A stretch of 64,000 bases of DNA, from assembly GCA_947495135.1 (NCBI GenBank), contig CANLXN010000006.1, positions 1 to 64,000 on the forward strand. Reading direction: 5' to 3'. Of this stretch, positions 20,529 through 21,935 are shown piece by piece. A model generated the notes under the pieces. That model was not told the origin of the DNA and did not search any database. It saw only the letters and a program-made list of their open reading frames with translations. Numbering within the stretch: the first letter of the stretch is position 1; every line of letters begins with the position of its first letter. A program made the position numbers and the translations under genes. Source of the DNA: an uncultured Flavobacteriaceae bacterium (GTDB lineage Bacteria; Bacteroidota; Bacteroidia; Flavobacteriales; Flavobacteriaceae).

Positions 20529-20608
20529 AATTATCGGCTTCAGAACCGATAATTACAAATATCGGGTCTTGATCCGATATTGTTGGATATCGTCTTAAAA
20601 ACCGATAT
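20529..20608 (+). promoter_or_regulatory. Three palindromic operators before satD, 28-bp period
   Basis: Three inverted repeats share one form, ATCGG, 8 bp, CCGAT. Site 1 has arms AATTATCGG/CCGATAATT (20529-20537, 20546-20554). Site 2 has AATATCGG/CCGATATT (20558-20565, 20574-20581). Site 3 has ATATCGT/CCGATAT (20587-20593, 20602-20608, one mismatch). The centres are exactly 28 bp apart. Site 2 abuts the -33 element and site 3 fills the spacer up to the -7 box, so a protein bound here should block transcription. SatD itself, with a C-terminal helix-turn-helix, is the obvious candidate binder; this is inferred. Confidence 0.85.
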
Positions 20609-20613
20609 ATTTG
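20583..20613 (+). promoter_or_regulatory. satD promoter
   Basis: TTG (20583-20585), 20 bp, TATATTTG (20606-20613), a full match to the Bacteroidota consensus. The ATG follows 15 nt later. The first three bases of the -7 box belong to the third palindrome. Confidence 0.75.
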
Positions 20614-20628
20614 TTAAAAACCAAAAAA

Positions 20629-21228
20629 ATGATTGCAATAATAACAGGCGATATCATCAACTCTCGAGAAGGAAAAGTAGAAAACTGGCTCAATCCTTTA
20701 AAAGAGGTATTGAACTATTATGGGAAAGAACCTACAAATTGGGAAATATTTAGAGGGGATAGTTTTCAATTATCTATAACCCCAGAAAAAGCGCTATTAG
20801 CAGCCATTCATATCAAGTCTGTTATCAAACAAACAAAACTACAAGACGTTCGCATCGCTATTGGTATTGGTGAAGAAAGCTATGGTTCTTCTAAAATAAC
20901 CGAATCTAATGGCTCTGCTTATGTAAGATCTGGCGACTGCTTCGAATCTTTAAAAAAACAAACACTCGCTATTAAATCGTCTAACGAACAATTTGATCAA
21001 CTCTTCAATATTATGCTTAGTTTGTCTTTACTTACAGCAAATAACTGGAGTAGTACAGTTGCCAAAGCAATTAAAACGGCCATAGAGAATTCAGATAAAA
21101 ACCAAAAGAACCTTGCCAAAATTCTTCATAAATCACAGAGCAGCATTAGCGAAGCACTCACCAGAGGTGGTTTCGAAGAAATTATGCACATGAACAGTTA
21201 CTACCAATCACAAATTTCTGAACTATGA
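20629..21228 (+). CDS. SatD family protein with C-terminal helix-turn-helix
   Basis: The 199-residue protein begins MIAIITGDIINSREG, the SatD family N-terminus, followed by GDSFQLSI and AIGIGEESY, which recall a nucleotide-cyclase-like or ferredoxin-like fold. Residues about 145-180 (NLAKILHKSQSSISEALTRGG) read as a DNA-binding helix-turn-helix. SatD was named for acid tolerance in streptococci; the biochemical role is unknown. A TTG at 20611 would extend the ORF, but it lies in the promoter box, so the ATG at 20629 is used. The stop overlaps the next gene by 4 bp. Autoregulation through the three upstream palindromes is likely. Confidence 0.85.
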   Translation: MIAIITGDIINSREGKVENWLNPLKEVLNYYGKEPTNWEIFRGDSFQLSITPEKALLAAIHIKSVIKQTKLQDVRIAIGIGEESYGSSKITESNGSAYVRSGDCFESLKKQTLAIKSSNEQFDQLFNIMLSLSLLTANNWSSTVAKAIKTAIENSDKNQKNLAKILHKSQSSISEALTRGGFEEIMHMNSYYQSQISEL

Positions 21229-21935
21229 TTCTTCTAAGCATTAAATTATTAATCGCTCATATTATTGGTGATTTCGTCTTACAGCCAGACAGTTGGGTAG
21301 AACATAAAAAGCTTCATAAACACAAGTCAAAATTCCTGTACTTCCACGGAATAGTTCACTTCATAGCACTTCTGGTCATACTGCAATTTAATTGGTCTTA
21401 TTTACCTTATTTTATACTAATTGTAATAAGTCACTTAATCATCGATCTAATTAAAATTAATCTGGAAGGCAAAATGAATTCCCAATTTTCATTCGCTCTA
21501 GATCAAATACTGCATATAGCCATTCTAAGCATAGTTGTATATTTAAACCATCCATACGTCATCGATTTCGGGAAAATATACTCGGAAGAAAATCTATTTT
21601 TAGTACTCATGTTACTGCTCGTAATACCAGTTTCATCCATTGTTATGAAGATGATGATGAGTAAATGGAAATTAGAAGAAGACAATTCAGAAGATTCCCT
21701 ACAAAACGCCGGTGCTTACATTGGGATATTAGAACGTCTCTTTGTTTTTAGTTTTATCGTTTTAAATCAATGGGGAGCAATAGGCTTTCTTATAGCCGCA
21801 AAATCCGTTTTTAGATTTGGAGATCTTTCTAGAGCCAAGAATAGAAAACTAACCGAATACGTATTAATAGGAACCCTCACCAGTTTTGGTTTAGCCATAT
21901 CGCTAGGGTTACTCTATATCTATTTCACCAAATAA
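21225..21935 (+). CDS. DUF3307 membrane protein
   Basis: The 236-residue integral membrane protein has about six to seven hydrophobic segments. The N-terminus IAHIIGDFVLQPDSWVEHKK is the DUF3307 signature, and HLIIDLIK and FALDQILHI supply the conserved His/Asp residues of the family. The function is unknown. It overlaps satD by 4 bp (ATGA) and must be under the same operators. SatD-DUF3307 pairs are, as I recall, common in Bacteroidota, so the two probably act together, perhaps a cytoplasmic sensor-repressor with a membrane effector. Confidence 0.88.
   Translation: MILLSIKLLIAHIIGDFVLQPDSWVEHKKLHKHKSKFLYFHGIVHFIALLVILQFNWSYLPYFILIVISHLIIDLIKINLEGKMNSQFSFALDQILHIAILSIVVYLNHPYVIDFGKIYSEENLFLVLMLLLVIPVSSIVMKMMMSKWKLEEDNSEDSLQNAGAYIGILERLFVFSFIVLNQWGAIGFLIAAKSVFRFGDLSRAKNRKLTEYVLIGTLTSFGLAISLGLLYIYFTK

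Follow-up and report, generated by a model that had tools for sequence, protein, structure and literature searches.

In the Pycsar and Panoptes systems, a small operon combines a palm-fold protein with a membrane protein; in Panoptes, a palm-type synthase is coupled with a transmembrane effector (PMC12657218). By this analogy, and among the systems considered, Panoptes is the closest functional analogue of the module examined here, in which a gene of the SatD family is followed by a gene for a membrane protein. Unlike the proteins of Pycsar and Panoptes, SatD has its own helix-turn-helix (HTH) domain and a putative operator array, and no named domain was found in the C-terminal half of its partner. 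The palm enzymes at large (class III cyclases, GGDEF proteins, the Cas10 palm and mCpol) resemble SatD in the predicted fold of its residues 1-117 (Foldseek probability 1.00, E 0.002-0.003) and presumably in two aspartates, invariant in SatD, that lie in GDI and RGD motifs. They differ from it in that the SatD palm is fused to a DNA-binding HTH and that its presumed transition-state residues vary. In the predicted architecture, a palm fold of the cyclase/Cas10 type would be part of the transcription factor itself. PucR/CdaR-type regulators also combine a GGDEF-like domain and an HTH in one protein, and SatD matches one such structure weakly (3onq; Foldseek rank 30, E 0.029, probability 0.63); to our knowledge, however, their HTH is of a different type and they have no such arrays. 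Autoregulated tandem-operator repressors and toxin-antitoxin operons are similar insofar as SatD, too, would repress, through repeated palindromes, the two-gene operon that it heads, whereas SatD combines a 28/29-bp pitch kept across phyla with site letters that drift together with the recognition helix.

In the literature that we searched, mostly non-subscription, we found no report of DNA binding, a palm fold or operator arrays for SatD. The family (PF16264) is represented there by an acid-tolerance annotation only (PMC10326533), and DUF3307, the domain found in the membrane partner, by a phage gene table in one paper. In a study on S. pyogenes, satD, found in 178 of 249 genomes, is reported as the only accessory gene whose essentiality score falls in the top quarter (PMC11323703). 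For this widespread family, the present analysis is a first approach at the level of mechanism.

The window, a stretch of 64,000 nucleotides from an uncultured Flavobacteriaceae bacterium (contig CANLXN010000006.1), carries satD at 20629-21228 on the + strand. The gene encodes 199 amino acids, with a predicted palm-fold domain at residues 1-117 and a C-terminal HTH at about 142-196. The protein belongs to the Pfam SatD family with 32.5 bits over residues 2-181, above the curated cut-off of 29; the same profile matched 23 of the 28 members of our SatD alignment at E 0.1, and in a whole-genome search with it the window genome was not among the matches. The AF2 model (pLDDT 94.7, pTM 0.91) consists of a palm domain and a helical HTH part. 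Foldseek against the PDB placed adenylyl cyclase Ma1120 (E 0.002, probability 1.00) and a cUMP synthase (E 0.0027) first, followed by a chain of a Csm complex, which we took as Cas10 (E 0.0043), and, in lower rows, by GGDEF, Cmr2, GTP cyclohydrolase III, Thg1-like and Y-family polymerase structures; none of the PDB matches fell under E 0.001. With VIA, Z was 9.3 for GTP cyclohydrolase III, while cyclases, GGDEF and Cmr2 scored 8-9, values little above the 7-8 that the tool gives as typical of models without a clear match, and a profile search of PDB sequences with SatD reached E 0.16 at best. Since the rows are consistently palm-type enzymes, despite modest E and Z values, residues 1-117 are predicted to adopt the cyclase/GGDEF/Cas10 palm fold, a nucleotide-handling fold in keeping with the ligand-binding N-terminal domain proposed earlier.

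Eleven residues (D8, S12, R42, G43, D44, Q47, G79, G81, G95, S101 and G102) are the same in all 237 SatD proteins compared, a count that includes duplicates and leaves out one locus with a broken satD. We take D8 (in TGDI) and D44 (in RGDSF) to be the putative metal site, an assignment by motif and strand order. The candidate transition-state positions 99 and 103, placed by eye, vary, and the cyclase Asn/Arg transition-state pair seems to be absent.

Upstream of satD, three putative operator sites, none of them assigned to a strand, follow one another. Sites 1 (20532-20551) and 2 (20560-20579) are perfect TATCGG-N8-CCGATA palindromes, and site 3 (20588-20607) reads TATCGT-N8-CCGATA with one mismatch. 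The original prediction had ascribed the shorter form ATCGG-N8-CCGAT to each of the three; this holds exactly for site 1 (20533-20550) and site 2 (20561-20578), while site 3 (ATCGT-N8-CCGAT, 20589-20606) departs from it by the mismatch in its left arm. The predicted 28-bp distance between centres is exact, with start-to-start distances of 28 and 28 bp. A candidate -33 element, TTGTTG, lies at 20580-20585 on the + strand; its TTG falls at 20580-20582 or 20583-20585, the placement being deduced from the -33 consensus. The TAnnTTTG box of flavobacteria occupies positions -12 to -5 (PMC9723704). The sequence TATATTTG (20606-20613, + strand) fits this type of -7 box and shares 2 bp with site 3, so that site 3 occupies the promoter spacer and site 2 adjoins the -33 region, as had been foreseen and as the coordinates of both promoter elements bear out. 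With TATATTTG as the -7 box, transcription is expected to start near 20618. Comparison with relatives suggests TATNNN-N8-NNNATA as the better description of a site. Single sites, when up to 2 mismatches are allowed, are not rare, with 26 found in the window versus 14.4 expected; the exceptional feature is the spaced array.

Letter by letter, the palindromes are not conserved: TCGG-N8-CCGA occurred in 0 of 29 related loci (L005-L033), which seemed to refute their conservation until the spacing was examined. We fixed the arm length of 6 and the gap of 8 from the window and left the letters and the lag (22-35 bp) free. In 138 loci (126 distinct proteins), the best lag was 28 bp in 128 and 29 bp in 6. 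With 100 further loci, giving 238 chosen by SatD similarity and not by arrays, near-duplicates included, 211 upstream regions passed the array score, 207 of them with a spacing of 28 bp and 4 with 29 bp; of the dinucleotide shuffles, one for each locus, 0 of 238 did. When every third locus was scanned with the same score (n=80), 28 bp passed in 69 and 29 and 30 bp in 1 each, and none of the 80 passed at 20-27 or 31-36 bp. What is conserved is TAT...ATA together with a gap of 8 bp and a pitch of 28 bp, whereas the NNN letters drift, and 24 of 197 loci have the CGG triplet of the window. The predicted conservation in other genomes stands for form and spacing and fails for the letters. Among the 197 loci, three good sites were found in 148, four in 30, two in 13 and five in 6. 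Five good sites at 28 bp were seen in L089, L095, L204 and L218. One locus (L042), whose SatD is 61% identical to that of the window, has two good sites (12 and 10 of 12) with no third site found at 28 bp, and its operator is possibly decayed or shifted; in another (L018), no array was found.

The drifting letters made it possible to ask the alignments which protein residues they follow. The co-variation set comprised 197 loci with distinct proteins and 199 SatD columns, with NNN read from DNA alone; 41 of the 238 loci were dropped (21 duplicate proteins, 18 weak arrays with a score below 8, and L018 and L021 by hand). Residue 175 ranked first for each of the three triplet letters, with a summed excess information of 2.72 bits, followed by columns 171 (1.34), 172 (1.32), 176 (1.26) and 169 (1.25 bits), all in or beside the same helix. 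This is the putative recognition helix, residues 169-179 (21133-21165, + strand; helix 170-179 in the model), with residue 175 encoded at 21151-21153. A smaller, earlier set of 91 loci likewise had residue 175 as its top column. At position 1 of the triplet, C accompanies Glu175 in 70 of 72 loci (other residues, 23 of 125). At position 2, G or T accompanies Glu175 in 72 of 72 (17 of 125) and A accompanies Gln175 in 59 of 59 (18 of 138), and at position 3, C accompanies Lys175 in 31 of 33 (12 of 164). Given Glu175, position 2 is G in 15 of 15 loci with Ser172 and 19 of 21 with Thr172, and in 6 of 33 with Asn172.

These pairings were tested on a tree of 196 loci, built from the SatD N-terminal part and the partner aligned side by side, with the HTH excluded. 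The combined alignment was used because a SatD-only tree (137 columns) gave just 2 supported pairs. For Glu175 and C, 9 supported independent pairs were obtained, of which 6.9 agreed, 0 disagreed and 2.0 showed no difference (median p 0.016, range 0.008-0.375). For Ser/Thr172 and G, there were 10 pairs (5.7 agreeing, 0 opposed, 4.2 without difference; median p 0.031). The other pairings stayed above 0.05: Gln175 taken alone (median p 0.125), Lys175 with position 3 (p 0.25, 0.1 pairs opposed) or position 2 (p 0.0625), and Ser/Thr172 with G inside the Glu175 group (median p 0.125). Of 150 columns tree-tested for position 1, residue 175 came first (6.9 versus 0), with a runner-up at 4.2 versus 0.1. 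With training restricted to loci that share less than 55% N-domain identity, the three helix residues 171, 172 and 175 predicted the full triplet in 78 of 197 loci and 400 of 591 letters, compared to 17 and 211 for a nearest-N-domain predictor trained likewise.

A different DNA-binding protein might read the palindromes, with SatD sharing only ancestry with the sites. Against such a reader, to which we assign very little probability, the helix residues outdo all other SatD columns as well as the nearest-relative predictor, and the array patterns adjoin satD exclusively in the genomes scanned. From the co-variation, the tree test and the helix-based prediction, we conclude that the protein at these sites is very probably SatD, a dedicated autoregulator as originally predicted, which most likely acts as a repressor of its own promoter.

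The genome scan suggested at the outset returned no second array. In the 4.29-Mb window genome, a pair of TATCG-N10-CGATA sites spaced by 28 bp was found in this array only when up to 3 mismatches were allowed and in no other place, and the reversed control of the two-site pattern gave 0 matches there. The CTG and TAG array patterns, searched in 11 and 10 genomes, matched solely beside satD by coordinates, with 0 matches of their reversed controls. Array patterns hence adjoin satD exclusively in 22 of 22 genomes; weaker or single sites may occur elsewhere. A wider regulon of single sites was considered for the window genome and dropped, sites with up to 2 mismatches numbering 138 against 141 of the reversed control. 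An operator private to one regulator would account for the drift in specificity. It also matters that, because each regulator seems to serve one promoter, the family comprises hundreds of natural pairs of regulator and operator whose specificity has changed while their geometry has stayed constant: 31 changes of the residue-175 class and 73 of the triplet were counted on the tree. These pairs provide a test bed for protein-DNA recognition codes, for partner co-evolution and for the reason behind 28 bp.

The confinement of the arrays to the satD promoter also bears on whether they are centromere-like partition sites and SatD a ParB-like protein. The palindromes are repeated, some copies lie on plasmids, and the HTH has weak ParB matches (E 0.027 in Pfam, 0.0082 in NCBIfam); the location of the array at the satD promoter and an N-domain that resembles palm enzymes argue against partition, and we find this reading the hardest of all to credit.

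The autoregulator reading can be followed into the promoter. A TAnnTTTG box was found downstream of the array start in 129 of 211 arrays, 102 of them at one 28-bp-grid position, a register that is partly built in since the TA belongs to the site. TTTG begins 2 bp past the last good site for 61 of 211 arrays, and does so for 67 of 454 other sites, so that the promoter register is only moderately specific. The position of the box relative to the last good site also allows SatD to be pictured as an activator, or as both, with upstream sites recruiting RNA polymerase and a filled spacer site repressing. In 26 of the 129 arrays, the box has an offset of +26, i.e. the last good site lies one repeat upstream of it, and at loci with a degenerate spacer site the upstream sites may activate. 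Since the spacer of the window, like that of many other loci (offset -2 in 40 of 129), is filled by a good site, we find this picture unlikely.

We consider it quite probable that satD and the gene of the membrane protein together make up a self-contained module that regulates itself and works as follows. The HTH domains of a SatD dimer would bind each TATNNN-N8-NNNATA palindrome, as the co-variation indirectly indicates, and the recognition helix would read NNN, chiefly through residue 175 aided by 171 and 172. Because the spacing is rigid, neighbouring dimers, 28 bp apart (29 in some lineages), would touch and build a short helical stack on the DNA. Lying over both the -33 region and the spacer, this stack would most likely repress the module's own promoter. 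In light of the predicted cyclase/GGDEF/Cas10 fold and of both presumed metal-site aspartates being kept, the palm domain most likely would bind or make a nucleotide deciding whether the stack holds. Release of the stack would yield more SatD and more membrane protein, and the C-terminal domain of the latter would be the actual effector or signal partner. The sequence comparisons strongly support the architecture of the module and SatD as the binder and make repression likely; nucleotide sensing by SatD, judged from the modelled fold and the invariant residues, is plausible.

The second gene (21225-21935, + strand) overlaps satD by 4 nt and encodes a polytopic membrane protein of 236 amino acids. 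It was originally described as a DUF3307 protein, and it does match Pfam DUF3307 (PF11750) with 97.2 bits over residues 6-115; the part that constantly accompanies SatD is, however, the C-terminal half, residues about 118-236 (21576-21932, + strand). Among 40 aligned partners (14 window-type and 26 divergent), G167 and E170 are conserved in 40 of 40, R171, K193 and G216 in 39, and R197 and S220 in 38. The pattern of this domain (G..ER, K...R, Y.L.G...S) was seen with nearly every SatD examined. The domain exists alone (about 105 amino acids) or fused to DUF3307 or to another N-terminal part. In 30 divergent SatD loci drawn by Pfam, partner ORFs were obtained by rule in 26, many of them of about 105 residues and without the DUF3307 part, and all 26 matched the window-type partner profile. 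In 25 of them the best stretch lay within profile positions 108-235 and in one (L148) at 51-233, and L152 had one additional stretch (E 0.0016) in the DUF3307 part. Three more divergent loci match the partner profile, and a further one (L146) ends at the contig end. Above the Pfam cut-off, nothing was found for 4 short partners, one 247-aa partner and window residues 146-236, nor in NCBIfam for 3 short partners and the same window residues. The comparison points to an unclassified membrane domain that accompanies SatD. The AF2 model of the whole partner has a pLDDT of 90.5 and a pTM of 0.74. Foldseek of the partner against the PDB gave a best E of 1.1, which we do not count as a match to a known fold, and an acetylcholine receptor chain found by sequence (E 0.0042) was taken as chance.

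The two genes keep close company. A DUF3307-type protein is encoded within 400 nt downstream on the same strand in 136 of 138 loci, the two exceptions being the broken satD of L021 and L118, which was misoriented in that count. Both genes are present in 80 of 80 named loci, with no third conserved gene among ORFs of at least 90 amino acids in these 80, and they overlap by 4 or 7 nt in nearly all of 79 loci. Such an adjacent second gene is also expected of toxin-antitoxin operons, for which autoregulation would be the further mark, here suggested by the operator co-variation. SatD might be a guard, or the antitoxin-like half of the pair, that restrains the membrane effector directly or through a nucleotide made by its palm, so that loss of SatD or of the nucleotide frees the effector. 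Autorepression would then keep the ratio of the two proteins; this is compatible with the module as we describe it and states a purpose for it.

Beyond the overlapping gene pair and the essentiality of satD in S. pyogenes, the likeness to the synthase and effector of Panoptes speaks for a guard, and so does patchy presence. SatD was found in 41 of 99 genomes by protein search and, by alignment search at E 0.001, in 255 of 395 genomes of the family (the window's own included in both counts), and in 0 of 8 other genomes of the window's genus, some of them incomplete; absence in the genus against such frequency in the family suggests loss or transfer. On the other side, the neighbours of the two genes are not conserved in 80 loci, those in the window are not defence genes, and the S. 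pyogenes gene was annotated as satD by others. Assignment to a defence family by PADLOC was not adopted: its matches are weak (best E 0.0007), and that in the window protein, at residues 143-177, is the HTH. Taken together, we regard a guard or toxin-antitoxin role as conceivable but doubtful. The specific version, in which the palm of SatD makes or retains a cyclic nucleotide that holds back the membrane effector and SatD gauges its own amount on the operator stack of 28-bp pitch, so that loss of the nucleotide would both free the effector and open the promoter, is in our judgement improbable; in that case, the modules would constitute a mobile second-messenger family extending from Bacteroidota to Gammaproteobacteria.

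The pair is not confined to Flavobacteriia, since plasmids of Gammaproteobacteria and Segatella carry it. In the divergent loci (29 usable), the mean autocorrelation was 23.6 of 36 at 29 bp and 18.4 at 28 bp, against 14-16 at other lags, with half-sites of other letters such as GTTTCA and TTTAAC. All four plasmid SatD loci (Segatella, Enterobacter, Vibrio and Pseudomonas) have the partner; arrays were seen in two of them with the annotated starts, and inverted repeats at 28 or 29 bp in all four with conserved starts. The Vibrio lentus plasmid p1 (L283) has three perfect TTAGCC-N6-GGCTAA sites at 28 bp, scoring 36/36 (best of 20 shuffles, 27), and the Segatella plasmid has a 28-bp array scoring 32/36 (best of 20 shuffles, 27). 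The Enterobacter plasmid (24/24) and the Pseudomonas plasmid (22/24) each have two sites spaced by 29 bp, in either case with a best of 20 shuffles of 21, the latter being barely above it; the Pseudomonas locus (L284) passes by the two-site score only, as its three-site score of 26 equals the best shuffle.

An origin from phages was also considered, and tblastn of both proteins against a phage collection found none. Three viral contigs (L278-L280) carry weak SatD relatives, 26-34% identical. The plasmid pairs (L281, L282, L283 and L284) lie near transposase, integrase or antitoxin genes, a setting that is likewise in keeping with a guard.
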